Shown piece by piece: positions 12,303 through 48,330 of a stretch of 64,000 bases of DNA. Made by a program: the position numbers and the translations under genes. Source of the DNA: Cellulophaga sp. BC115SP (lineage in GTDB: Bacteria > Bacteroidota > Bacteroidia > Cytophagales > Spirosomataceae); the NCBI RefSeq assembly GCF_009905545.1, contig NZ_JAAALB010000003.1, forward strand, positions 186,001 to 250,000, in the 5' to 3' direction. Under the pieces are notes generated by a model that did no database searches, was not told the DNA's origin, and saw only the letters and a program-made list of their open reading frames with translations. Every line of letters begins with the position of its first letter. The first letter of the stretch is position 1.

Positions 12303-13016
12303 TTACAAATATTGCGTAAACAGTTTTTTCAAAGCAGATTCTTCTTGATACCCAATCGCACGCATTTTTTGTGTACCATCTTTGAAGATTAAAAACGTTG
12401 GAATTTCGTCAATATGATATTTTGTTAAAATAGCACGATTGGCATCAGCATCGACTTTTACGATTAATACCTTTCCTTTATATTCCTCGGAAAGCTTTTC
12501 TACGGCGGGCATCATTTTGATACAAGGTCCACACCATGGCGCAAAAAAATCTAAAATTACTACCGAATGCTGCGCCAATATTGCTTCTAGTTCTGCATCA
12601 GTGATAGCTTTTGCATCCTTGGTAGCACTGATACCTTCCACTGGTTTCATTTTGGTAGTCCATTTCAAATATCCACCTTGTAAGTCATATACTTGCGAAA
12701 AACCGCTTTTACGAAGCGCTTCTGTAGCAGCGGCACTTCGTCCTCCTGATAAACAATAGACAAAGACAGGTTTAGTTTTGTCGAGAGTTTTGATTTTTTC
12801 CTGAAAATCAGCTCCACGATAATCAATGTTGGTTGCTTTGGGTAAATGCCCCCCTCCATATTCGCCTGAAGTACGTACATCAATTAATTGAGCTCCAGTA
12901 GATTCAGAATATTTTTTTTCAAAATCCTCTACAGACAAAACTTGTGCATGGGAAAAACTATAAAATCCCAAATAAACGATTGAAAATAATATAATTTTAG
13001 AAATAATATTTTTCAT
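12303..13016 (-). CDS. Exported rhodanese-thioredoxin fusion protein
   Basis: 237 residues in three parts: a signal peptide (about 1-24, cleaved after SHA), a rhodanese domain (about 27-120; catalytic Cys88 in FVYCLSGGRSA) and a thioredoxin domain (about 140-237; WCGPC at 161-165, cis-Pro in IDEIPTFLIF). Likely a periplasmic thiol-disulfide or sulfur-transfer protein; the substrate is unknown. ATG 13016 gives a standard signal peptide; ATGs at 13028 and 13034 and a TTG at 13052 are alternatives. Divergent from eno. Confidence 0.88.
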   Translation of the reverse strand: MKNIISKIILFSIVYLGFYSFSHAQVLSVEDFEKKYSESTGAQLIDVRTSGEYGGGHLPKATNIDYRGADFQEKIKTLDKTKPVFVYCLSGGRSAAATEALRKSGFSQVYDLQGGYLKWTTKMKPVEGISATKDAKAITDAELEAILAQHSVVILDFFAPWCGPCIKMMPAVEKLSEEYKGKVLIVKVDADANRAILTKYHIDEIPTFLIFKDGTQKMRAIGYQEESALKKLFTQYL

Positions 13017-13047
13017 TTTTTTGTGCATTGACATTAATAGATTATGA

Positions 13048-38602: not shown

Positions 38603-38621
38603 TTGTAGCAGGAGCAGGACT
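38603..38621. repeat. attL core
   Basis: TTGTAGCAGGAGCAGGACT, identical to 48255-48273. It is a copy of the tRNA-fMet T-arm/acceptor 3' end; only this fragment of the tRNA is present here, so it is the displaced original 3' end. Confidence 0.88.
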
Positions 38622-38857
38622 AAAAAGCCCTTAACTGCTACTTATACGAGTTTTATATATAATCAGCGTAATTTACTGATTTTGAATATTTTAAAGCCTT
38701 TATTGTAAAGTAATTTTATTAAGATAGACTACAATACATTAACTTACATTAAGTATAACCGTCCCCGAAACCGTCCCCGACAAATTGTTTCGTCCTGCAA
38801 AGTTAGTAAATTAGTGATACATTTTAATACAGTGTTCAATTTTAATATTATTTACCT
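38622..38857. other. attL arm region
   Basis: Non-coding. Contains an inverted repeat (AATCAG..CTGATT, 38661-38681) and the repeat GTCCCCGAAACCGTCCCCGA (38761-38780), which is two GTCCCCGA octamers and reappears at the other end of the element. A minus-strand TAACTTTG box lies at 38798-38805 without a -33 element. Confidence 0.6.
38761..38780 (+). repeat. Candidate integrase arm site, left
   Basis: GTCCCCGAAACCGTCCCCGA, identical in sequence and orientation to 48183-48202. Two octamers GTCCCCGA separated by four bases. Position near each att core suggests arm-type sites for the integrase or excisionase. Confidence 0.6.
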
Positions 38858-40183
38858 ATGGCTAGTATGACTTTTGTTTTACGTGAACCTTCTTCCAAAA
38901 CACCTCAACCAATTAACGCACTACTCCGATGGGATGGACAACGCCTAAAATTTTCTACAGGCTTAAAAGTGAACCCTAAGCACTGGAACTTTGAGAAATA
39001 CAGGGTTAAAAATGTGCTTGACGCTGTAGAAAAGGACGCTATCAATGAATTACTATCAAATCTTGAAAAAGAAGGGGATAGAGTTATTACTAAGCTAAAA
39101 GCCGAACAGGTGCTAATTGATTCGGCTTATCTAAAACAACACTTTGAAAACTTCCTAAATCCTCCTCAAATAGAGGAGGAGGCAACACCACAACAAAAGT
39201 TTTTTTCTTTCATTACCCAATTTGTGGAGGATAGTAATACAGGACGTAGAAAGAATCACAACGACGGAAAACTATCTATTCGCTCAATTCAACGATACAA
39301 AACAGTAGAAACAAGATTACGGGAATTTTCAGAGGTGTATGATAGAGTAATTTGCTTTAATACTATTGATGAGGTGTTTTACAGTGATTTTGTGGAATGG
39401 TTGCAAAAGTCTAAATCTTACTCTAAAAATAACATTGGTAAGTACATTACAACCCTTAAAAGTATCATGAATTATGCTTTAGAAAAGGGACAAATTGAAA
39501 AATTAGAGTACAGGACGAATAAGTTTAAAGCCATGTCGGAGGATTCTGATAATGTTTATTTGACCGAAAAGGAGTTACAAAAGATTTATGATTTGGATTT
39601 GTCAGGAAATGAGCGTTTAGGGCGTGTTAGGGATTTATTTATAGTTGGTGCGTTTACAGGGCTTAGATTTTCAGATTTGACCAATATAAACAAGAACGAT
39701 ATAAAAACCGATGATGAGGGAGACCAGTTTATAGAATTGGAGCAACAAAAGACTGAAGACCCCGTAACAGTACCAGTATTGCCAATGGTCAAAACCATTT
39801 TTGAAAAGTATAATTATTCACTACCAAGTATTAGTAATCAAAAAATGAATGATTATATCAAAGAGGTATGTCAATTGGCTAGTATTGAAGAAAAGGTAAC
39901 TAAACGGATAACAAAGGGCGGTTTGCGTGTAGTTGAGTATTTAGAAAAATGGGAAATGATTACAACCCACACGGCTAGAAGGTCTTTTGCTACCAATGCG
40001 TATTTGAAAGGAGTAGATACCCTTAGCATAATGGCAGTAACAGGACACAAAACCGAAAAGTCATTTATGAAGTATATTAAAATTACTCATAGGGAAAAGG
40101 CTAAACGCTTTAAATTAGCATGGTTAAAGTCTTCAGAGAGTGGATATACTCGTTTTGGTAATGTTATTAACCTGACAGCCTAA
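38858..40183 (+). CDS. Tyrosine integrase of the element
   Basis: 441 residues, Bacteroidota integrase architecture: an arm-binding N-terminus (about 1-90; RWDGQRLKFSTGLKVNPKHW), a SAM-like core-binding domain (about 110-215) and the catalytic domain. Catalytic residues visible: Arg in FTGLRFSDL (about 269), HxxR in HTARRSFATN (His371), GHKT (His397) and Tyr406 in MKYIKI. Reads away from attL, the usual place for an integrase acting at a tRNA 3' end. Confidence 0.95.
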   Translation: MASMTFVLREPSSKTPQPINALLRWDGQRLKFSTGLKVNPKHWNFEKYRVKNVLDAVEKDAINELLSNLEKEGDRVITKLKAEQVLIDSAYLKQHFENFLNPPQIEEEATPQQKFFSFITQFVEDSNTGRRKNHNDGKLSIRSIQRYKTVETRLREFSEVYDRVICFNTIDEVFYSDFVEWLQKSKSYSKNNIGKYITTLKSIMNYALEKGQIEKLEYRTNKFKAMSEDSDNVYLTEKELQKIYDLDLSGNERLGRVRDLFIVGAFTGLRFSDLTNINKNDIKTDDEGDQFIELEQQKTEDPVTVPVLPMVKTIFEKYNYSLPSISNQKMNDYIKEVCQLASIEEKVTKRITKGGLRVVEYLEKWEMITTHTARRSFATNAYLKGVDTLSIMAVTGHKTEKSFMKYIKITHREKAKRFKLAWLKSSESGYTRFGNVINLTA

Positions 40184-40207
40184 AATGGGCTTTTAAATAC
40201 TCTAAAA

Positions 40208-41026
40208 ATGAATATTCAAGAAATAGATTTAGATAAGTATTTCAATGCGGTACAGGAAATTAGTAATAATATTCTTGTTGTTCTACCTCAAAAAGAAAAA
40301 GAAGCCGAAAGAGTGAGTTTAGTATTATATAGCCTACAAAAAAGACGAATAATAAGAGGGGATAGTAATATTAGTAAGTGGGAAATAAGATTCAAGGAAC
40401 GATTAAAAGAAGTAGAAAGAACTATTGAAGTATTAGAAAAAGAATCAGACAGATATTTAGGTCTTTTTAGGTTTGGAATAAAGTATCTTTTATTGAATAG
40501 TTATGATATTGAAATGATACAGCATTGTAGAAAAGTATCTTTTGATTTTGAAAAAGACCGCTATTTGAATCAGTTAAAAACTAATCTTTTACCTACTAAA
40601 GTATTCATTGAAAGTACATTAGACAAGTTGAATTATACTTATATGCTATTTTATCAAAATGGCGAAATTATACAAATTAATGAGCCAAAGGATAACGTAA
40701 TTTATAACTTTTCTAATGATTTGGGCGTGTATGATTTTATTATGTACTTAAAAAATGAATTGATTGAGCAAAATAATGTACTTGATATTGATAGTACGAA
40801 ATGGAATTTGCCCAAACGGCTTCAGTTACTTGAAAGAATAGGTTTCTTTGAATTAGAAGAAGTAAAAAATATTACAAGTAATAGACGTAAAGGAGAGTTA
40901 ATAAATCAGATTTTAGGCATTTCAGACGATAATACGAGAAAGTACATTGATACCCTGAGAGTATGGAATAAAGCAAGCGAAAAAAATAAAGAGGAAATAG
41001 AATTTTTTCTAAAAAAGCTAAGGTAG
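40208..41026 (+). CDS. Element protein of unknown function
   Basis: 272 residues, 24 bases after the integrase. Mostly alpha-helical by eye, with coiled-coil-like KERLKEVERTIEVLEKESDR (residues 60-85). The C-terminal part (RLQLLERIGFFELEEVKN, INQILGISDDNTRKYIDTLR) resembles a C-terminal region seen in many hypothetical proteins of Bacteroidota mobile elements, including RteC-like ones. No catalytic motif is recognised. Confidence 0.7.
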   Translation: MNIQEIDLDKYFNAVQEISNNILVVLPQKEKEAERVSLVLYSLQKRRIIRGDSNISKWEIRFKERLKEVERTIEVLEKESDRYLGLFRFGIKYLLLNSYDIEMIQHCRKVSFDFEKDRYLNQLKTNLLPTKVFIESTLDKLNYTYMLFYQNGEIIQINEPKDNVIYNFSNDLGVYDFIMYLKNELIEQNNVLDIDSTKWNLPKRLQLLERIGFFELEEVKNITSNRRKGELINQILGISDDNTRKYIDTLRVWNKASEKNKEEIEFFLKKLR

Positions 41027-41047
41027 TTTAACGCTATTAAACCTGCT

Positions 41048-41099
41048 AAAAAACTTTGTGGTAATTTTTGGGTTACCCCAAAGTGTAGTAAAGTTTTTT
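41048..41099 (+). promoter_or_regulatory. Nested inverted repeats between element genes
   Basis: AAAAAACTTT (41048-41057) is the exact complement of AAAGTTTTTT (41090-41099), and inside it CTTTGTGGTAA can pair with TTACCCCAAAG. The two pairings exclude each other in part, as in attenuators. It comes just before a terminator hairpin. Confidence 0.4.
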
Positions 41100-41114
41100 A
41101 ATCTGTCATATTTG

Positions 41115-41151
41115 AGCCGTAAACGAAAAACAACGTTTTACGGCTTTTTTT
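41115..41151 (+). terminator. Terminator after the integrase operon
   Basis: Stem AGCCGTAAACG / CGTTTTACGGCT (one bulged base), eight-base loop, seven T's. Confidence 0.82.
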
Positions 41152-41178
41152 ATATACAAACCACTAAAAAAACAGTTT

Positions 41179-41496
41179 ATGCAAACCACTAACATTTTGC
41201 AAGTAGAGCAAACAAATGAGCAAAGTCTTTTATCAAAGATTGATGATTTAATTAAAGCTCGCTTGTCTAATTTTCTCAGTAATCCAATTTCTTCAAATGT
41301 GGAGGAGGATGTTTATTTAACACGCGAACAGGTAGCCAAATTATTACAAGTAAGTGAGGTTACAATTTGGCAATGGTCAAAGCCCGACAAAGGTATTTTA
41401 AAGCCTTATCGTATAGGTTGTAAAGTAAGGTTCAAACGTTCGGAGGTTCTACAATCCCCAAAGGCTTTTAACATCGGAAAGGAGGTAAAGCCATGA
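41179..41496 (+). CDS. Excisionase-like helix-turn-helix protein
   Basis: 105 residues. Residues 50-100 form a MerR/excisionase-type wing HTH (VYLTREQVAKLLQVSEVTIW, ILKPYRIGCKVRFKRSEV). The N-terminal 45 residues are Gln/Asn-rich with no clear fold. Likely the recombination directionality factor or a regulator of the element. Overlaps the next gene by four bases (ATGA). Confidence 0.8.
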   Translation: MQTTNILQVEQTNEQSLLSKIDDLIKARLSNFLSNPISSNVEEDVYLTREQVAKLLQVSEVTIWQWSKPDKGILKPYRIGCKVRFKRSEVLQSPKAFNIGKEVKP

Positions 41497-41939
41497 GTAA
41501 GCCATTAAGCAAAAGACAGTTTGAACAATTCAGTAAGCTATTGTTAAAACAAGAAAGCTGTATTAGGGATATATTGGACGCCTTCAGTACTTTGCACCAT
41601 ATTGTAATGCAAACCACTACAAAGCATTACAACAAGGATATACAAGGCAAATTGCGTGATACTCAACAAAAATACGTAGTGGAGGTATATCGAAAATTAC
41701 AATCTTTCCCACTACAACACATTAACGAAAAATTGGTGCAACATCCTGATTATTACCATATTCAGGGCGCAATTTGTGTTAGTATGTTTTATGTAATGAT
41801 AGCTATGGATAGCAAATCATTAAAAGATGACAAATCACTTTTTAAACACCTATTTGAGTGTAAGGATTGTTGTGTATTACTCTGTGAAAGTGCTTTAGGA
41901 ACAATCTTGGAGCTAAAACAAAAAAACGGCATAGAATAA
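41493..41939 (+). CDS. Element protein of unknown function
   Basis: 148 residues, mostly helical, no recognised motif; several Cys and His (e.g. LFECKDCCVLLC). Translationally coupled to the excisionase-like gene by a 4-base overlap. Its end overlaps a minus-strand terminator (41920-41953), so an antisense RNA from that region could pair with this mRNA. Confidence 0.7.
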   Translation: MSKPLSKRQFEQFSKLLLKQESCIRDILDAFSTLHHIVMQTTTKHYNKDIQGKLRDTQQKYVVEVYRKLQSFPLQHINEKLVQHPDYYHIQGAICVSMFYVMIAMDSKSLKDDKSLFKHLFECKDCCVLLCESALGTILELKQKNGIE

Positions 41940-41953
41940 CATTCTACACCGTT
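41920..41953 (-). terminator. Terminator of the candidate antisense RNA
   Basis: On the minus strand AACGG..TAGAAT / ATTCTA..CCGTT with a short internal loop, followed by seven T's. On the plus strand the hairpin is followed by TTCTAAATT, with no T tract, so it points left. Confidence 0.7.
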
Positions 41954-41990
41954 CTAAATTCTTTGTGTTCAATTTTAATTAATAAAATTG
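41920..41990 (-). ncRNA. Candidate antisense RNA (~70 nt) in the leader of the Rep-like gene
   Basis: Predicted from its own promoter (minus strand: TTTG at 42026-42023, 19-base spacer, TATCTTTG at 42003-41996) and its own terminator (41953-41920). The transcript would start about 41990 and consist of a first hairpin (CAATTTT/AAAATTG, 41990-41970) and the terminator hairpin. It is complementary to the end of the 148-residue gene and to the leader of the Rep-like mRNA if that mRNA is read from upstream. Expression is not shown. Confidence 0.55.
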
Positions 41991-41995
41991 TACTG

Positions 41996-42026
41996 CAAAG
42001 ATAGTTTAAATCCAGTCTAAAGCAAA
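41996..42026 (-). promoter_or_regulatory. Minus-strand consensus promoter upstream of the Rep-like gene
   Basis: Full Bacteroidota consensus: TTTG, 19-base spacer, TATCTTTG. It fires left, away from the Rep-like ATG at 42036, and has only a terminator downstream. Confidence 0.65.
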
Positions 42027-42035
42027 TCCCCCAAC

Positions 42036-43490
42036 ATGATAGATTTTATCAGTACCGAAGCCCCTAGCGGTTGCGCTTTGGTGTGGTTGGATTGTGCCGA
42101 ATTGATAGATAACGGTTTTCGTTTGCTTGTGGGTCGTGGTACGGGTGAGGTAATAAATGAGCCGTCAAAAGCTGAATTTAACGGCTTAACCTTTAGGCTT
42201 ATACCCTCATCGCTGGACACCTCAAAATATCGGTGTTTACTAAGTGGCTCAATCCATAAATACAGAAACAGCGGAGGAAATAACCATGATAGATTTACAT
42301 TGTCTGAAGTCTTCAGGGTGTTAAATGAATTGTCTGTAAAGTTTGGAATAGACCTAAATAGTACGGTCTTGCATGGTGTCGAGTTTGGCGTAAATCTTCG
42401 TTTGCCTTATCCTCCATCTAAGTTAATTAAATCGGTAGTGGTGCATCGGAATACACCGTATGAAGCCATTAACAAGAAAAGACGTATAGGCGTGGTTTGC
42501 GTTAGGGCAAAGTATGAAATCAAGATTTATGATAAAGGCTATGTAAGTGGCTTATCTAAAGAGAATATTCTAAGGATTGAATACAAGGTGTTTAAAATGC
42601 AACAGTTGGAAGGAATGGGTATTTCGAGGTTGTCAGACCTTTGCGACCCTAATAAAGTAGCTCCTTTGCTTGGTTTGTTATTGGGTGTTTTGGACAATAC
42701 CGTTTTTGTTCCCACTGATACAGATTTAAGCGTATTAACCGAAAGAGAGAAGACTAATTTTTATGCGATGAGTAATGCGTTTGTTTGGCAAAACTTCAGC
42801 AAAGCAAAACTTTATAACTCAAAGTCTTCATTGGATAGAATCTTGAAAAAGTGCAATGCTTTTGATTATCAAAATGATTTAAAAATTAGAGTTTTGGAAG
42901 AATGGGAAAAGCTCATGGATGTGTCCCAAAAAGCAGAAAAAAGCGTAACATTTTTACCAAGTTTTCAAGATAAAGAAGCACTTGGAAATGTGACTTTTGT
43001 ACCGCTTGAATATAGTGTACAAAAGTCGCAAAAACAGTTTTTAGAAACCTGTTCACCTTTTATGCCAAATGTTTTTAAAGAGGTGTCGGGTTCAAGATGT
43101 TGCATAACGTGCGGAAAAGATATTTCCATGAATAAAACAAACAGTGTGTTTTGCTCGGAAAAATACAATCCTTTTGCAAAACGGTGCAGAAACAAAGACA
43201 GCAATAAACGTAGAACTTTTAAAAGAAAAATCATGAATGCAGTGAATAAAAACAAATGGCTTCAGATTACATACAAAAACCCCGATACTTCAGAAATATA
43301 CACGGATATTCTACACGGTTCGGAGGTGGCTGTAAATCGTGGGTATCTCAACACGATTATAAAAATTGAGGTTTTGCATGATAACCCAACTTTGTACAAT
43401 GAACCTAATAATCCACATCCTGAAGTGATTACGGGCGAAAGTGCAAAAAAGCTACTCGAACAGTTAACAAAAGAGAATCAAAACGACTAA
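42036..43490 (+). CDS. Rep-like (phage replication initiator-type) protein with zinc-ribbon tail
   Basis: 484 residues. The N-terminal part (1-250) has a pattern like phage replication-initiation factors (filamentous phage gpII/RstA type): CLLSGSIHKYRNSGG, HGVEFGVNLRLPYP (about 113), KIYDKG (163-168) and LRIEYKVFKM (about 179). From memory, similar proteins next to an integrase occur across Bacteroidota and are unnamed. The C-terminus has Cys pairs (CCITCGKD about 355, FCSEKYNP, RCRN about 383) that may bind zinc. Rolling-circle or nicking activity is an inference; the catalytic Tyr is not identified. Confidence 0.6.
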   Translation: MIDFISTEAPSGCALVWLDCAELIDNGFRLLVGRGTGEVINEPSKAEFNGLTFRLIPSSLDTSKYRCLLSGSIHKYRNSGGNNHDRFTLSEVFRVLNELSVKFGIDLNSTVLHGVEFGVNLRLPYPPSKLIKSVVVHRNTPYEAINKKRRIGVVCVRAKYEIKIYDKGYVSGLSKENILRIEYKVFKMQQLEGMGISRLSDLCDPNKVAPLLGLLLGVLDNTVFVPTDTDLSVLTEREKTNFYAMSNAFVWQNFSKAKLYNSKSSLDRILKKCNAFDYQNDLKIRVLEEWEKLMDVSQKAEKSVTFLPSFQDKEALGNVTFVPLEYSVQKSQKQFLETCSPFMPNVFKEVSGSRCCITCGKDISMNKTNSVFCSEKYNPFAKRCRNKDSNKRRTFKRKIMNAVNKNKWLQITYKNPDTSEIYTDILHGSEVAVNRGYLNTIIKIEVLHDNPTLYNEPNNPHPEVITGESAKKLLEQLTKENQND

Positions 43491-43906
43491 AAAACATAGG
43501 TTTTTTGTGTTTTCGTGAGTTGCTGTATCAAAATCGTTCAATATCGGTTAGTTTGTTGGTTTTTAGATAGTTGAGTGTGTTTTTTAAAGCAAAATTAAAG
43601 CAAAATACAGGCTATTGGCTAAACGTATCAACAAACTACTAAAGCCCTTATAAAACGGTGTTTTTGCCTCAAATATTCAGTGAAAAACGTCCATTTTAAG
43701 GGCTGTTTTGGAGCTGAAAAGGGCGATTTTACTAGATTATTGGGCTAAATGAACCAAAAAGCAGTAGCAGGGGTGTACAGTTGTACCATACCAAAAAATA
43801 TCAACAAAATACGATTGGTTGCGTACCTCCACTAGCGACACCCCAATTTTTCAAAAACTTTAAATCGAATTGAAATTTGTTTTAATCATTCCACAATTGC
43901 GACAAT
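43491..43906. other. Structured non-coding region, possible origin
   Basis: 416 bases without a supported gene. Holds an imperfect long hairpin (43643-43704; AGCCCTTATAAAACGG with a diverged complement, arms ~24 bases) and further copies of the AAGGGC motif downstream (43729-43735). A small GTAC-type hairpin (GTGTACAGTTGTACCA) lies near 43770. A location just after the Rep-like gene fits a single-strand or double-strand origin, but this is not proved. Confidence 0.45.
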
Positions 43907-44191
43907 ATGGGAACTTTTCAGAATACAGATAAGCAAAAGCAGGCTTACAGATACTTTGTGATGGGACTTACAGCCCGTGAAATAGCCAAACTTACAGAAC
44001 TGTCCAACCGAACTATTGAGCGTTATATCTCTTTGGGCGATTGGAAGCGACCAACAGACACCCGAAGCCTAGAGGTAAAAGTATTGGAGTTGGTACAATC
44101 TGGAAAAAGCTATTCAGAGGCTTCAAAAATACTAGGAGTAAGTAAAACTACCATTTACAACTATTTGAAGCGACAGAGAGTAAAAGAATAG
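43907..44191 (+). CDS. Small protein with two helix-turn-helix motifs
   Basis: 94 residues. One HTH near the N-terminus (GLTAREIAKLTELSNRTIER, residues 19-40) and one in the C-terminal half (KSYSEASKILGVSKTTIYNY, residues 65-88). The second matches the Hin/resolvase or small-terminase type. May regulate the element or act in excision. Neighbours are non-coding DNA upstream and a small HTH-like protein downstream. Confidence 0.78.
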   Translation: MGTFQNTDKQKQAYRYFVMGLTAREIAKLTELSNRTIERYISLGDWKRPTDTRSLEVKVLELVQSGKSYSEASKILGVSKTTIYNYLKRQRVKE

Positions 44192-44249
44192 CAAAAAATG
44201 AGGTATTGGGGTTGTGTTTGTTACTTGACTTTATAAAAAATACAAAACA

Positions 44250-44438
44250 ATGAAGAAAAAAGACGTAAAAGCTCGGTTGAGGGCAAAATATAAAGATATG
44301 CGTGAGGACTTCAAGAAATGGCATAATGACGGGTACAAGGCTAGTGTAGTAATCCAGAAAGTTGCAGATAAATATTACATGGCAGAAGCCACCGTGGAAG
44401 ATATTGTTTACAAAACTGGCAAATACAGAGACCAATAA
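44250..44438 (+). CDS. Small helix-turn-helix-like protein
   Basis: 62 residues; basic N-terminus (MKKKDVKARLRAKYKDMRED) and VADKYYMAEATVEDIVYK as a possible HTH. Same strand as the double-HTH gene, 58 bases later, and followed by a terminator. Function unknown. Confidence 0.55.
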   Translation: MKKKDVKARLRAKYKDMREDFKKWHNDGYKASVVIQKVADKYYMAEATVEDIVYKTGKYRDQ

Positions 44439-44446
44439 CACACTGA

Positions 44447-44490
44447 AGCCCTACAAATACCTCAAAATTGGCGTTTGTAGGGCTTTTTTA
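44447..44490 (+). terminator. Terminator between element modules
   Basis: Perfect 11-bp stem (AGCCCTACAAA and complement), 16-base loop, T tract. It overlaps the stop codon (44488-44490) of the minus-strand gene beyond it. Confidence 0.85.
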
Positions 44491-44667
44491 TGATTGTTTG
44501 CCTTGACTTTGCTCAAAAGTTTCTAAATCCTTTAGAATCAATTGCCTGACATAATTTGAAAAATCAGTAAAAAGAAAGTCGGTTCTTTTCTCTACACGCT
44601 CCATTAATGGAACTGGCATAATTACGCCTACTCGTTTTGTTGCAATCTTACTCTTTTTTTCTTCCAT
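44488..44667 (-). CDS. Small ribbon-helix-helix-like protein, candidate repressor
   Basis: 59 residues read from the minus strand (ATG at 44665-44667), the only minus-strand protein gene I find in the element. A lysine-rich start is followed by KRVGVIMPVPLMERVEKRTD (strand, then helix A) and FTDFSNYVRQLILKDLETFE (helix B), the pattern of Arc/MetJ/CopG proteins. It has a TACATTTG -7 box at 44700-44693 and a leader of about 20 bases. CopG-type proteins commonly repress replication genes of plasmids and phages; this role is inferred. Confidence 0.6.
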   Translation of the reverse strand: MEEKKSKIATKRVGVIMPVPLMERVEKRTDFLFTDFSNYVRQLILKDLETFEQSQGKQS

Positions 44668-44692
44668 TACATTACAAGTTTTATCTAATAGG

Positions 44693-44700
44693 CAAATGTA
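44693..44700 (-). promoter_or_regulatory. -7 box of the RHH-like gene
   Basis: On the minus strand TACATTTG (+ strand CAAATGTA), consensus TAnnTTTG. The -33 element is weak. Confidence 0.5.
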
Positions 44701-44726
44701 AATACTTTTTCATATTCTGACACTAT

Positions 44727-44747
44727 TATATGTGTTTTATACATATA
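44727..44747. promoter_or_regulatory. Candidate operator in the divergent control region
   Basis: Inverted repeat TATATGT GTTTTAT ACATATA (7-bp arms, 7-base spacer) between the RHH-like gene and the replication operon, a fitting size for a dimer of RHH proteins. Confidence 0.45.
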
Positions 44748-44781
44748 TAATTTATATTCAATGTAAATTATTTGTATTTGG

Positions 44782-44815
44782 TTTGTGTTTTGTATGTGTT
44801 TTGTTTGTATGTTTG
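44782..44815 (+). promoter_or_regulatory. Promoter of the replication operon
   Basis: TTTG at 44782-44785, 22-base spacer and TATGTTTG at 44808-44815; the first ATG of the operon is at 44840. The region is very T/G-rich with repeated TGTTTTG-like units, so the -33 choice is uncertain. Confidence 0.5.
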
Positions 44816-44839
44816 TGAAGGTAATATATTTTTTCCATT

Positions 44840-45043
44840 ATGAAGGCAACAAAAAAAGAAATTCAACGCCTAGCGAAATCATTAAAGGAGGATTTTAAAA
44901 GAGGCGTGTATTATGGTAGTTATTCTGAGCGATTAGAAAAGATAGTGCTTGGTTTTGATAACGTTACCCGTTCGGACGATGGCTTTATAGGGGTTCATGT
45001 ACGAGGGGGACGGTGTTTAGATTTGTGGTTTGATGTTTTGTAA
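44840..45043 (+). CDS. Small element protein of unknown function
   Basis: 67 residues, first gene of the putative replication operon. Lysine-rich helix (KATKKEIQRLAKSLKEDFKR), then VHVRGGRCLDLWFDVL. No recognised motif. Ends 21 bases before the initiator gene. Confidence 0.6.
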   Translation: MKATKKEIQRLAKSLKEDFKRGVYYGSYSERLEKIVLGFDNVTRSDDGFIGVHVRGGRCLDLWFDVL

Positions 45044-45064
45044 GTTATTAAAATACAGTTTGTT

Positions 45065-46030
45065 ATGATAAATGTACATGGTGTATTATTGGAGGAGTTG
45101 AATGATTCAGAATTGTATTTATTGCTCCATATTGCCAAACGATTGTCTATAAATAGTACCTGTTTCCCCAAAAACGAAACACTTTGCCATGATACCAAAT
45201 GGAGTTTGAAGACCGTCCAGAAAGTAAAGCGTTCTTTGATTGAAAAGGGCTTTATTTCGGTAACTCCAAGGCAAAACGAGTTTGGCGCTCACCTGTCAAA
45301 TATGTACAGAGTCGAAACCGATTTGATAGGCGTTTTTGTGAGCGTTCGAGGCATGGGCGATGCCTCCGAAATGGGTTATTTAGACACGGAGGGGGTGAGT
45401 AAAAATTACTCAGGGGGGGTAAGTAAAGTTTACTCAGGGGGGATAGGTAAAAGTTACTCAGGGGGGGTGAGTAAAGTTTACTCAGGGGGGATAGGTAAAA
45501 GTTACTCAGGGGGGGTGAGTAAAAATTACTCACTAGAAGTATTGACCAGTTTAAGTATTGACCAGTTTAAGGATAATAATAGTGTTGAAAAAAAATTTGA
45601 AAGTGAAAAATCAAGTTTTGAACCTTCTTTGCCTCCTCTGGTCGACGCTAAGAAAAAAGAAAAAAGTTGCGCCAAAAAAGAAAGTCTTGTGTTTGTGTTT
45701 CCCGATGGTTTTTCGGACGAAAGTAAACAGCTATTCATGGAGTTTGTGGAAATGCGTAAAAAGCTAAAGAAACCCATCAAAACCCAATTGGCTGTAGATA
45801 TGCAGTTAGAGGCTTTGAGGCAATGTACAAGCGATGAGGTTAGAATCAATACGATAAAGGCAAGTTTAAAAAATGAGTGGCAAGGGCTATTTCCTGATAG
45901 ATACGAGCCTACACCCCCGAAGCCTCCGAACCCTGAAGCCAAAGAGGGACGAATAAGCCAAATAAGCAATGCCGTTGATGAGGCGACACAAAGAAACCTA
46001 GAACGATTGAAACAAATTGGATTAGCATGA
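45065..46030 (+). CDS. Replication initiator with iterons inside its coding sequence
   Basis: 321 residues. Residues 1-90 form a winged-helix domain of the replication-initiator kind (LLEELNDSELYLLLHIAKRL, LKTVQKVKRSLIEKGFISVT). Residues about 109-156 are six tandem 8-residue repeats (GVSKxYSG / GIGKSYSG). The C-terminal third (MEFVEMRKKLKKPIKTQLAV ... IKASLKNEWQGLFPDRYEP) resembles the DnaD/phage-replication C-terminal region. Layout (DNA-binding domain, iteron-coded linker, partner-binding end) matches lambda O. Overlaps the next gene by 4 bases. Confidence 0.75.
   Translation: MINVHGVLLEELNDSELYLLLHIAKRLSINSTCFPKNETLCHDTKWSLKTVQKVKRSLIEKGFISVTPRQNEFGAHLSNMYRVETDLIGVFVSVRGMGDASEMGYLDTEGVSKNYSGGVSKVYSGGIGKSYSGGVSKVYSGGIGKSYSGGVSKNYSLEVLTSLSIDQFKDNNSVEKKFESEKSSFEPSLPPLVDAKKKEKSCAKKESLVFVFPDGFSDESKQLFMEFVEMRKKLKKPIKTQLAVDMQLEALRQCTSDEVRINTIKASLKNEWQGLFPDRYEPTPPKPPNPEAKEGRISQISNAVDEATQRNLERLKQIGLA
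45389..45532 (+). repeat. Six 24-bp iterons (candidate replication origin)
   Basis: Six head-to-tail 24-bp units at 45389, 45413, 45437, 45461, 45485 and 45509. Each has a run of five to seven G's, then an imperfect palindrome such as GAGTAAAAATTACTC, GAGTAAAGTTTACTC or AGGTAAAAGTTACTC, then A. Units 3 and 5 are identical; units 1 and 6 share 22 bases. The frame is kept because 24 is a multiple of 3. Likely binding sites of the N-terminal winged helix. Confidence 0.8.
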
Positions 46031-46824
46031 TAGCAATAACCACAACCCACCGACCAAAAGCAAACATAGGTATCCTAGAACCCGAAGAACCTATAAAAGC
46101 CTTGACCCCATCCGAAAACGAAGTTAGGAGCGCTATGATACAAAGCGAAACTAACAAGCGATTGGGGGATATGTCAGCCCCCGAACTGTTAGCCCTGACA
46201 GCCCAAGTAATCAAAACGGCATACACACGCCTAGGATTAAAGCAGAATAGTTTGGATATGGACGATTTGCAACAAGTCATATTTTTTGATTTAAGAGGCT
46301 TTTTACACCTAAATAGCAATGAAGTACTATTTGCGCTAAAAAGTGGCTTAAATGGCGACTATTCGGGCGAAAACGGGGTATTTTTTAATAGTTCCAACTT
46401 TGTACAATGGATAAAGAAGTATATAAGTGGAAAAAGGAGGGAAGTTACAAGAAAATTAATTTTGCTGAAGGAGCGAACAGAACACGCCCCAACGCCTCCT
46501 CTTTCGGATGAGGAACTAAAAAAGAAATTGATAGAGGTAACTAATCAATATGCTGATATGATAGAGGAGAACCCAAAGTTTAAGTTTATCGCCCCTGTCT
46601 GGATGCTTTTTGAAGACTTGGAACGCCTAGGAGTTTGTAGTATTTCTAATGAGCAAAAACGGGCAATTTATGACCATGTGGCAGGATTGCCACAAAATAA
46701 GAGCTTATCACCTGACAGCCTAAAGAAACAAGCAAGAACCATAGCGTATTACAGAATATGTAAAGAGTTAGTAGAAACAAAGACAAGATTATTAAACCAA
46801 GGAATCACACTTAAACCAATTTAG
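46027..46824 (+). CDS. Element protein, candidate helicase-loading partner of the initiator
   Basis: 265 residues, no Walker motif. MSAPELLALTAQVIKTAYTR, DMDDLQQVIFFDLRGFL and FFNSSNFVQWIKKYISGKRR recall a group of Bacteroidota phage replication accessory proteins that I know only by look. Coupled to the initiator by a 4-base ATGA overlap, the same order as lambda O and P. The helicase-loading role is inferred from order only. Confidence 0.6.
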   Translation: MIAITTTHRPKANIGILEPEEPIKALTPSENEVRSAMIQSETNKRLGDMSAPELLALTAQVIKTAYTRLGLKQNSLDMDDLQQVIFFDLRGFLHLNSNEVLFALKSGLNGDYSGENGVFFNSSNFVQWIKKYISGKRREVTRKLILLKERTEHAPTPPLSDEELKKKLIEVTNQYADMIEENPKFKFIAPVWMLFEDLERLGVCSISNEQKRAIYDHVAGLPQNKSLSPDSLKKQARTIAYYRICKELVETKTRLLNQGITLKPI

Positions 46825-46828
46825 AATC

Positions 46829-47083
46829 ATGGTAACATTTACAGACAAAAGTATTATCGTGGAAATGCCTAGCAATAACCCTTTTGAGGATTATGTTAGT
46901 CTTTTGTGGGCATTATTTGAAGTGTCCAGTCAAGTAATTAGAAGCGCTGAGAACTACGGTAATATTGATTCATTTTACCCAATAGAATACTTTGTAAAAA
47001 GCCTCACTACACTAGATGGCAAACAATGTTGTAAAATGGATGAACTCATGAAGCAAGTATTTTTAAACCAAAAGCAATCCTAG
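46829..47083 (+). CDS. Small element protein, paralog A
   Basis: 84 residues; MVTFTDKSIIVEMPSNNPFE and a middle YPIEYFVKSL. Shares its start pattern and several positions (SIxVxxxSxxPFxDxxSL) with the next gene (47108-47350), so the pair looks like a tandem duplication. Function unknown. Four bases after the helicase-loader candidate. Confidence 0.65.
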   Translation: MVTFTDKSIIVEMPSNNPFEDYVSLLWALFEVSSQVIRSAENYGNIDSFYPIEYFVKSLTTLDGKQCCKMDELMKQVFLNQKQS

Positions 47084-47107
47084 TTTAAACCTCCACACTC
47101 TAAATAC

Positions 47108-47350
47108 ATGGTACAAATTACTAAAGATAGTATTGTAATTACTATCAAGTCCAAACATCCATTTAAAGACTGGTTAAGCCTAAAACAGTCTTTTGTTTAT
47201 GCCAATATGTTTATAATGAATAGTAGTGATTTGCGCCCCTGTGATTATGACCTATATCCATTTAATCACATTCAAAACCTACTAAATGACCTTGATTCTA
47301 CAATGACCCAAGATGAGGCGATACAGGCTATTTTATTACAAGAACAATAA
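47108..47350 (+). CDS. Small element protein, paralog B
   Basis: 80 residues; MVQITKDSIVITIKSKHPFK, then DYDLYPFNHIQNLLNDLD and a C-terminus with TQDEAIQAILLQEQ where paralog A has KMDELMKQVFLNQKQ. Related to 46829-47083 by eye, without a known function. Confidence 0.65.
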   Translation: MVQITKDSIVITIKSKHPFKDWLSLKQSFVYANMFIMNSSDLRPCDYDLYPFNHIQNLLNDLDSTMTQDEAIQAILLQEQ

Positions 47351-47363
47351 ACCATTTACAAGT

Positions 47364-47621
47364 ATGATGTTTAGAAATCACAAATATGAAATATTGTCAA
47401 AAATAATAAAACCCAGAACACTAATTAGAATTGATTCTCAACCTTTGGTAAAAGGTAAAGTGGAGCTTGTATTCTTTATGGGTATTCGGATACTAAAGAT
47501 TGTTGATTGGTCTTTGTACCCCAATAATAGTAGACACCGTGACATTTTTTTATTTGGTATTCGTATTTTAAGAAAGAATGTATTTCCCCCGTCTGGTATG
47601 TATGCTATTAGACCAAAGTAA
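47364..47621 (+). CDS. Small element protein of unknown function
   Basis: 85 residues starting at ATG 47364. Contains two copies of a GIRIL(K/R) motif (FFMGIRILKIVDW and FLFGIRILRKNVF) 20-25 residues apart, an internal duplication. Very basic. Last gene of the operon; followed by a terminator hairpin. The frame also extends upstream into paralog B, which I take as chance. Confidence 0.5.
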   Translation: MMFRNHKYEILSKIIKPRTLIRIDSQPLVKGKVELVFFMGIRILKIVDWSLYPNNSRHRDIFLFGIRILRKNVFPPSGMYAIRPK

Positions 47622-47654
47622 ATTAACATCCTTGATTATGAAATAGAAGCTATT

Positions 47655-47687
47655 AAAAGCCCTAAACTATCATGTTTGGGGCTTTTG
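47655..47687 (+). terminator. Terminator of the replication operon
   Basis: Stem AAAAGCCCTAAAC / GTTTGGGGCTTTT (one G-U pair), six-base loop, T-rich tail. Confidence 0.82.
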
Positions 47688-48202
47688 CTTTGTATATAGA
47701 TATGTGATATAGTGGAGGCTTCAGGGTGCTTGTTTAAATAGTGTTTAAATACCGTTTAATATTGCGATTTATTTAAACAAATTGTCATCAAATGTTTTAA
47801 GTATTTCCTCCTCCTCATCTTTGGTGTGAGCTATGTATCAATAACTCGAAGACAATAAAAAAGCAACCCTTTGGAGGTTGCTTTTACCACTATTTAAAGG
47901 ATGATTAGGCTTTACCCTTCAAATACGATGCAAAATACATATTAGGACTAAAAAAACAAAGGACGGCTTTTAGTACCGTCCTTTGAGGTGGCGTTCAGAA
48001 TACCTCACACCATTGCTAATAGATTAACCTTAGCCGCTATAAAGTTACATGAAAATTCAGTATGGTAAAATAGAAATGATTAGGAGGTGTTAAAGGTTAT
48101 CAACCTGAAGGGTAATTTTTGGTAGTTAAAACAGAGGAGGCATAATTTTTTTTTACGATTTTTTGAGAAAAAAATAGAAATAGTCCCCGAAACCGTCCCC
48201 GA
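47688..48202. other. Non-coding right end of the element
   Basis: No gene supported. Contains two direct GTTTAAATA boxes (47732-47740, 47743-47751) and one inverted (47770-47778), two further terminator-like hairpins (AAAAGCAACC stem at 47857-47885; AAAGGACGG stem at 47958-47984) and, near attR, the GTCCCCGA repeat (48183-48202). Confidence 0.6.
48183..48202 (+). repeat. Candidate integrase arm site, right
   Basis: Second copy of GTCCCCGAAACCGTCCCCGA, identical to 38761-38780, about 55 bases from the attR core. Confidence 0.6.
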
Positions 48203-48250
48203 ACAAAAAAGAAAAAGGGTAACTATCTGATAATCTGATAGTTACCCTTT
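48203..48250 (-). terminator. Element-borne terminator of tRNA-fMet
   Basis: On the minus strand a perfect 14-bp stem (AAAGGGTAACTATC and complement), nine-base loop and a TTTCTTTTTTGTT tail, eight bases from the tRNA 3' end. It belongs to the element, because it lies inside the att repeats. Confidence 0.8.
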
Positions 48251-48257
48251 CGAGTTG

Positions 48258-48330
<73 letters not shown>

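Follow-up and report, generated by a model that had tools for sequence, protein, structure and literature searches.

A candidate replication origin with the lambda O layout inside the initiator gene of a Bacteroidota integrative element

The O replication protein of phage lambda carries a winged helix at its N-terminus. The origin of lambdoid phages is described as lying in the middle of the O gene, where iterons are combined with an AT-rich tract; Stx phages with two extra iterons have 13 more residues in O, and the G-tracks of the lambda iterons are contacted by the protein (PMC7466680). In phage SPP1, similarly, gene 38 contains the oriL origin, whose repeats are bound by gp38 (PMC6316719). 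The iterons of PLE RepA are described as non-coding (PMC7145576). Here we describe an array of palindromic repeats inside an O-like initiator gene carried by an integrative element, in a 64 kb stretch of Bacteroidota DNA that was analysed as a whole and is referred to below as the window. Judging from sequence comparison, the array most likely serves as an in-gene origin with the lambda O layout, at which the initiator binds and theta replication of the excised element starts. The features of the locus are collected in Table 1.

Table 1. Features of the integrative element and of its replication module (window coordinates).
Feature	Position	Strand	Basis or remark
Integrative element, 9,652 bp	38603..48254	.	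First base of attL to base before attR
attL, copy of tRNA-Met 3' end	38603..38621	.	19-bp direct repeat
Tyrosine integrase, 441 aa	38858..40183	+	Phage_int_SAM_5, Phage_integrase, Arm-DNA-bind_5
HTH_17 excisionase-like protein, 105 aa	41179..41496	+	Pfam; PHROG 66 excisionase
484-aa backbone protein ("rep484", working name)	42036..43490	+	In 28/149 genomes, own included
94-aa HTH protein	43907..44191		Terminase_5 above Pfam cut-off; terminase small-subunit PHROGs
Terminator-like hairpin and T-run, left of module	44446..44485	+	Inverted repeat; T-tail read by eye
59-aa protein, divergent to module	44488..44667	-	Ribbon-helix-helix-like by eye; no Pfam match
67-aa ORF, first of replication module	44840..45043	+	No family match
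O-like replication initiator, 321 aa	45065..46030	+	HTH_36 2.5e-11, DnaD_N 2.6e-7; PHROG 678
Winged-helix domain, residues 6-83, presumed iteron-binding	45080..45313	+	AF2 secondary structure; PDB fold match
Six 24-bp iterons	45389..45532	+	Unit starts 45389, 45413, 45437, 45461, 45485, 45509
Two exact 16-bp repeats AAGTATTGACCAGTTT	45537..45568	+	Two different reading frames
AT-richest 60 bp of initiator gene, presumed unwinding region	45550..45609	.	78% AT
C-terminal three-helix domain, residues 218-269, common to gpO-type proteins	45716..45871	+	AF2; PHROG 18589; weak tblastn
265-aa protein, helicase-loader position of O-type modules	46027..46824	+	Directly after O-like gene
Terminator-like hairpin after module	47654..47687	+	Terminator scan
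attR, at 3' end of tRNA-Met (48257-48330, minus strand)	48255..48273	.	19-bp direct repeat

The initiator matches PHROG 678 (replication initiation O-like; 1.1e-18), its residues 19-289 aligning with positions 77-296 of the 346 in the profile, and residues 205-287 match PHROG 18589. The Pfam family PF04492 (Phage_rep_O), which lambda O matches at 5.7e-36, is not matched by this protein. The AF2 model, based on a three-sequence alignment, is poor overall (mean pLDDT 43.6), with moderate confidence for the winged helix (10-residue means of 61-81 over residues 11-70, lower beyond). The best PDB fold match of the winged helix is the DnaD N-terminal domain 2v79 (E 4.4e-4). That DnaD domain has been reported not to bind DNA (PMC7145576); a DnaD-type fold alone is no proof of DNA binding. 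Residues 85-216, including the peptide encoded by the repeats, have pLDDT values below 50, as expected of a disordered linker, and in tblastn the C-terminal part is weakly similar to gpO-type proteins annotated in Klebsiella, Gifsy and Rac phages. The matches to HTH_36, DnaD_N, PHROG 678 and 2v79, together with the AF2 model, support the first-pass annotation in placing the array within a winged-helix replication gene.

TRF detected a 24-bp period with 5.9 copies at 45391-45532 (score 193) and a 48-bp period with a score of 240, and no tandem array scoring above 70 elsewhere in the whole 64 kb window. The repeats are in frame with the open reading frame 45065-46030 (+) and encode EGVSKNYS GGVSKVYS GGIGKSYS GGVSKVYS GGIGKSYS GGVSKNYS, so the six tandem 24-bp units with their 8-residue repeat, recognised in the first-pass annotation, are borne out. 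The palindrome and G run ascribed there to each unit stood in part. The core GTAA-N3-TTAC is present in all six units, of which it is the sole invariant part, but only units 1, 4 and 6 have the 6+6 palindrome GAGTAA-N3-TTACTC without a mismatch: in unit 2 the left arm departs from it by a single base (AAGTAA), and units 3 and 5 have a degenerate left arm (AGGTAA). Similarly, five Gs precede unit 1 but no G run follows unit 6. Nor are G runs beside palindromes as unusual as had been proposed, since the iterons of SGI1 are described as containing G5 (PMC7433901) and G-tracks are likewise described for lambda (PMC7466680). Exact GAGTAAANNTTACTC matches are confined to the array in the whole 7.08 Mb genome. 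Within the 48-bp super-period, units 3 and 5 have the degenerate left arm and unit 4 the full palindrome, and strong and weak sites may alternate along the array. As for a G-quadruplex, its loops of 17-18 nt would be long.

Such an array could also be a repeat at the level of the protein, or a product of slippage, and nothing else: a Gly-Ser-rich flexible linker extended by tandem duplication, in DNA without a binding function. We consider this unlikely, even though the six copies share one frame with a unit length that is a multiple of 3, the 48-bp super-period indicates a recent duplication, and the very low model confidence of the linker points to disorder. Because all six copies lie in one frame and look recently duplicated, the window alone cannot separate selection on DNA from selection on protein, and the case for a DNA-level function rests on relatives. 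The array itself nevertheless exceeds what the encoded peptide requires, both in palindromy and in its use of GGG. Paired palindromic positions number 33 of 42. Re-encoding this peptide with host codon usage gives 16.8 +/- 2.5, and 33 was reached by none of 20000 such re-encodings and by none of 20000 with the codon usage of the element. GGG accounts for 11 of the 13 glycine codons in the array, against 7.9% of the 802 host glycine codons counted in the window. These joint figures overstate the significance because the units duplicate one another; the single-unit palindrome probabilities, which are fairer, are 0.005, 0.017, 0.14, 0.001, 0.15 and 0.004 for units 1 to 6 (range 0.001 to 0.15).

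Single-sequence searches for relatives of the initiator gave no result in phages at 1e-5, in IMG/VR or in the GTDB contigs; they returned one genome among 198 besides its own and one marginal match among 395 genomes of the class. An alignment query (A1) recovered the closest relative found, on the IMG/VR viral contig L078, with 43% identity over residues 1-119 and a DnaB-like helicase gene (PHROG 19) nearby. The two genes share an EVLT / AAGTATTRACC segment and repeats made of a palindrome and G6. The linker of L078 contains three repeats GGTCGY-AAAC-GCGACC, the third lacking the first G, at a spacing of 23 and 22 bp with G6 runs between them; it thus differs from the window in its arms (GGTCGC/GCGACC), in having three copies and in using two frames. 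Copies 1 and 3 encode VVNAT, whereas copy 2, in the other frame, encodes RSQTRP. The repeat is therefore kept as DNA across a change of frame, which argues against a linker under protein-level selection only. Since both letters and peptide have changed between the two genes, what is kept is the position and form of the repeat, namely a palindrome with an A-rich core followed by G6. The two genes illustrate how a DNA-binding domain and its presumed repeats, locked in one gene, can diverge in sequence in step, with position and palindromic form retained and no constraint on the reading frame. A second relative, L002, from a genome of the same family (G008), has imperfect 15-bp linker repeats in one frame only and lies next to a gene for a DnaC-like loader (PHROG). 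The G008 stretch matches Pseudarcicella hirudinis NZ_FOXH01000005, which is placed in the family Flectobacillaceae, order Cytophagales, at NCBI. The first-pass annotation had suggested that homologues might keep the repeat at the DNA level while the protein changes, and this is what L078 displays; homologues without DNA repeats, or repeats conserved as protein only, did not turn up in these two nearest relatives, both of which have linker repeats, kept as DNA in L078.

We surveyed O-like genes for repeated 15-mers in gene nt 241-560, using 100 dinucleotide shuffles per gene, with a script that recovers the four annotated iterons of lambda. From 25 genes, L106, L108, L109 and L110 were dropped as near-identical to L105 and L107, leaving 21 distinct ones. 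In 17 of these 21 the linker repeats exceeded at least 99 of the 100 shuffles, and no shuffle reached the array of the window. The copies occur in more than one frame in 12 of the 17 array-bearing genes, a further point against a repeat that serves the peptide alone. Three genes (L058, L064, L067) had been picked after in-gene repeats were seen in them, other loci of that family search being left out; when they are omitted, 14 of 18 genes beat at least 99 of 100 shuffles, 11 of these with more than one frame. The repeats of PMBT5 and Ld25A are A-rich and of low complexity, and a convincing array is absent from four of the 21 genes (L103, L104, L105 and L107). Eight further phage records, chosen by protein similarity only, gave repeats beating at least 99 of 100 shuffles in seven cases and copies in more than one frame in six; one of the records (bajarodcaudo virus 4) spans two annotated ORFs. 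Among 34 further family hits the same threshold was passed by six (L055, L057, L065, L139, L143, L154), which break down into 3 of 15 shorter PHROG 678 hits, 0 of 9 hits that are MarR-type by eye and served as negative control, and 3 of 10 others. In-gene repeats are thus common in full-length or longer O-like genes, of which the window is one member, and are not universal among PHROG 678 hits.

Several of the arrays in O-like genes have one shared form in different letters. The palindrome reads TGAGTAA-AAA-TTACTCA in the window, TCCCTC-AAAAC-GAGGGA in lambda, ATCCCCGAAAACGGGGAT in Gifsy-2, TGGACAAAAATGTCCA in L067, GGTCGCAAACGCGACC in L078 and TGTCTCCAAATTAGAGACA in mEpX1, and a comparable palindrome is absent from two of the eight arrays compared (FNU4 and L002). 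The set of O-like genes, which includes the window, L078, L067, lambda, Gifsy-2, Klebsiella 6, Cruim01, Thermus Cumys and others, offers a test bed for co-evolution of winged helix and iterons.

The position of the array within the gene also follows lambda, its nt 325-468 overlapping the annotated lambda iterons at gene nt 349-433. The AT-richest 60 bp begin at nt 486, after an array that ends at nt 468; in lambda they begin at nt 436, after a last iteron that ends at nt 433. In some O-like genes, for example L078, L058, Gifsy-2 and L102, the AT-richest 60 bp are located elsewhere. The two AAGTATTGACCAGTTT copies that adjoin the array lie in different frames because their spacing is 16, which again speaks against a repeat maintained for its peptide. 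AT-rich-region repeats are described as sites that plasmid initiators can bind in single-stranded form (PMC4081077), and this analogy suggests a role of the 16-bp repeats as a single-strand binding site for the initiator. The sequence AAGTATTAACC is found to the right of the linker repeats in both L078 and L002. The motif AAGTATTRA follows the iterons on their right side, in two frames, in 7 of the 21 genes surveyed against 0.5 expected, a count that none of 300 shuffles reaches; the data in which it had first been noticed also served to test it, and three of the seven carriers are close relatives. Its sites lie at 45537-45568 of the window, at 3374-3399 of L078 and at gene nt 428-500 of L002. 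It is absent from eight further phage O-like regions and from the 34 further family hits, the latter being a weak test on a hand-picked set with many MarR-like and other HTH proteins. AAGTATTRA is therefore best regarded as a lead for near relatives only.

An array downstream of a start codon could, in principle, block transcription. The repeats might then be an operator through which the O-like protein represses or attenuates its own gene, with replication depending on the 484-aa protein, a conserved backbone gene of sibling elements in which an O-like gene was not recognised. The 45380-45600 region folds more stably than shuffles, both as RNA (z -3.1) and as DNA (z -4.4). The array lies 324 nt inside the gene, however, rather than at a promoter, and its position and AT-rich neighbour fit origins rather than operators. 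We regard an operator as highly improbable and return to an in-gene origin.

The initiator gene belongs to an element that is bounded on either side by the 19-bp direct repeat TTGTAGCAGGAGCAGGACT. When its two flanks are joined, they match without a break (query 1-600 of 600 at 91%) in G001 and G003, two of the four other genomes of the genus, which therefore have an empty site there. Close to either end of the element (38761-38780 and 48183-48202) lies a single copy of the 20-mer GTCCCCGAAACCGTCCCCGA, as expected of integrase arm-type sites. The 484-aa protein matches no named Pfam family above cut-off and has no relative in IMG/VR; its single-sequence AF2 model is useless (pLDDT 32.7). It has conserved Cys residues and by eye resembles rolling-circle Rep or relaxase proteins, a likeness that none of the tools applied supported, so that a role in replication or mobilisation would be a guess. 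The 94-aa HTH protein matches generic HTH families more strongly than terminase ones.

Upstream of the replication module, the hairpin at the left was not among the results of the terminator scan, and a protein very similar to the divergent 59-aa one is found in the sibling element L094. Four imperfect 11-bp TTTGTATTTTG repeats lie in the divergent intergenic region (44771-44816) and are a possible operator. Downstream of the initiator gene, the 265-aa protein matches no loader family in Pfam or PHROGs. Its one relative besides itself in 149 genomes (L093, 29% identity) again follows an O-like gene with in-gene repeats, in a prophage-like stretch with an integrase and a phage-type methyltransferase.

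Sibling elements in related genomes share the integrase, the 484-aa protein, the excisionase-like gene and small HTH genes, though not always the whole set, and att repeats were seen at a tRNA gene in two siblings (tRNA-Met in L097, tRNA-Arg in L094). An O-like gene was not recognised in six sibling stretches (L094-L099) by phmmer at 1e-3, in ORF lists or in a PHROGs scan of five unassigned ORFs; the phmmer negative is weak, since L093 does have an O-like gene that phmmer failed to detect. Most simply, a tRNA-integrated element would have received a phage replication module made of an initiator with embedded origin and a partner. Two siblings have repeats of other kinds: tandem near-identical units of about 214 bp in L097 (6098-7898), with repeated 100-aa ORFs (MGTWSFLASV...), and, beside the relative of the 484-aa gene in L099 (3153-6825), many short ORFs with SSPRLWG- or HPHACGE-like peptides, which presumably is how a translated CRISPR array looks.

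No clear virion gene was found among the ten element proteins scanned against Pfam and PHROGs. The element had been described at first as free of phage genes, which holds at most for virion genes, because a similar pair of initiator and partner occurs in L093 and a relative of the initiator in L078; initiator and partner look like a phage-type replication module. PICI-type phage satellites have an integrase, their own replication module and no virion genes, are induced and packaged by a helper phage, and may carry a small terminase subunit. The element has an integrase and replication genes, and its 94-aa HTH protein has terminase-type matches; were this protein indeed a small subunit of terminase, a resemblance to phage satellites would be closer.

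A module that behaves like cargo, as suggested by siblings that share the backbone but in which an O-like gene was not recognised, and that has a terminator-like hairpin on either side, could serve against phages. Rather than, or besides, replicating the element, a chromosomal copy of a phage-type origin with its initiator might act as a decoy that titrates or poisons initiation by related infecting phages and so excludes them. There is precedent, as ectopic copies of the lambda origin are described to arrest lambda (PMC4488673), and rep-lambda phages to be excluded by plasmids with part of ori-lambda plus oop (PMC3349717). We nevertheless find a decoy very unlikely. It would not need the full initiator gene, and no PADLOC match was obtained among ten element proteins. 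No phage with the same iterons was found either: the 36 + 9 exact-pattern stretches of IMG/VR comprise scattered single sites and one array, none of them a tandem coding array in context, and the exact iteron pattern gave a single foreign site among 291 genomes of the order, own included. The one array among the matches, in L014, is non-coding and on an unrelated contig. It consists of four GAGTAAATATTACTC palindromes at 12860-13030, downstream of an integrase gene; its half-sites are the same as those of the window, probably by convergence. A bolder version of this idea, which we likewise think quite unlikely, has a non-virion integrative element taking up an in-gene origin from a phage as cargo and turning it on phages with the same iterons, or profiting at their expense (origin decoy or initiator hijack); the G6 spacers would then be a distinct structural part of the origin, one that outlasts the turnover of the palindromes.

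The reading that we prefer is that of an origin embedded in the gene of its own initiator. We infer that, after excision, the O-like protein would bind the palindromic 24-bp repeats through its N-terminal winged helix, each palindrome probably by a dimer. The resulting complex would open the AT-rich stretch with its AAGTATTGACC repeats just right of the array; the C-terminal domain and the 265-aa protein in the loader position would then recruit the host replicative helicase, and the excised circle would be replicated. The peptide encoded by the repeats may be a tolerated disordered linker between the two domains. Against an in-gene origin stand the single frame of the L002 repeats, the lack of arrays in part of the family, the absence of a PF04492 match, the poor AF2 model, and the 265-aa neighbour without recognisable loader domain, whereas the neighbour of L002 has one. 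The first-pass proposal of an iteron origin inside the initiator's own gene, in the layout of lambda O, is nonetheless well supported by comparison, through the O-like family, the iteron position, the frames and the AT-rich flank.

The layout itself is already known. In the literature accessed, which covers few subscription journals and is weak evidence of absence, no iteron origin inside a gene turned up for an integrative element of Bacteroidota. Through this locus, in-gene origins of the lambda type probably extend to Bacteroidota, here on an element whose scanned proteins include no clear virion protein.

With lambda O and ori-lambda (NC_001416; PHROG 277, also 678) the locus shares an initiator with an N-terminal winged helix, palindromic in-gene iterons with an A-rich core in the part of the gene that codes for the linker, an AT-rich tract immediately to the right and a second replication gene directly downstream. 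It differs in an unrelated iteron sequence, a 24-bp spacing, six copies in one frame with G runs between them, the missing PF04492 match, a downstream gene without loader family match, and an element in which no clear virion gene was found. The O proteins of mEpX1 and Gifsy-2 likewise match PHROG 678 and 18589 over both protein ends, and their genes carry repeats (4 and 7 copies) in the corresponding region, but belong to phage replication modules with annotated DnaC-type loaders. SPP1 gene 38 with oriL, likened to the window by description and not by sequence, also has origin repeats inside the initiator gene together with an AT-rich DUE, but in a lytic Bacillus phage (PMC6316719). The rep-oriV of SGI1, as described, is an iteron replicon with G5 repeats that an integrative element uses after excision, but its iterons lie downstream of rep, not inside, and its initiator is of another family (PMC7433901). 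By its host group, its element without a clear virion gene among the proteins scanned, and the G6 spacers that it shares with L078, the locus is a good example rather than a surprise: a new instance of a known design.
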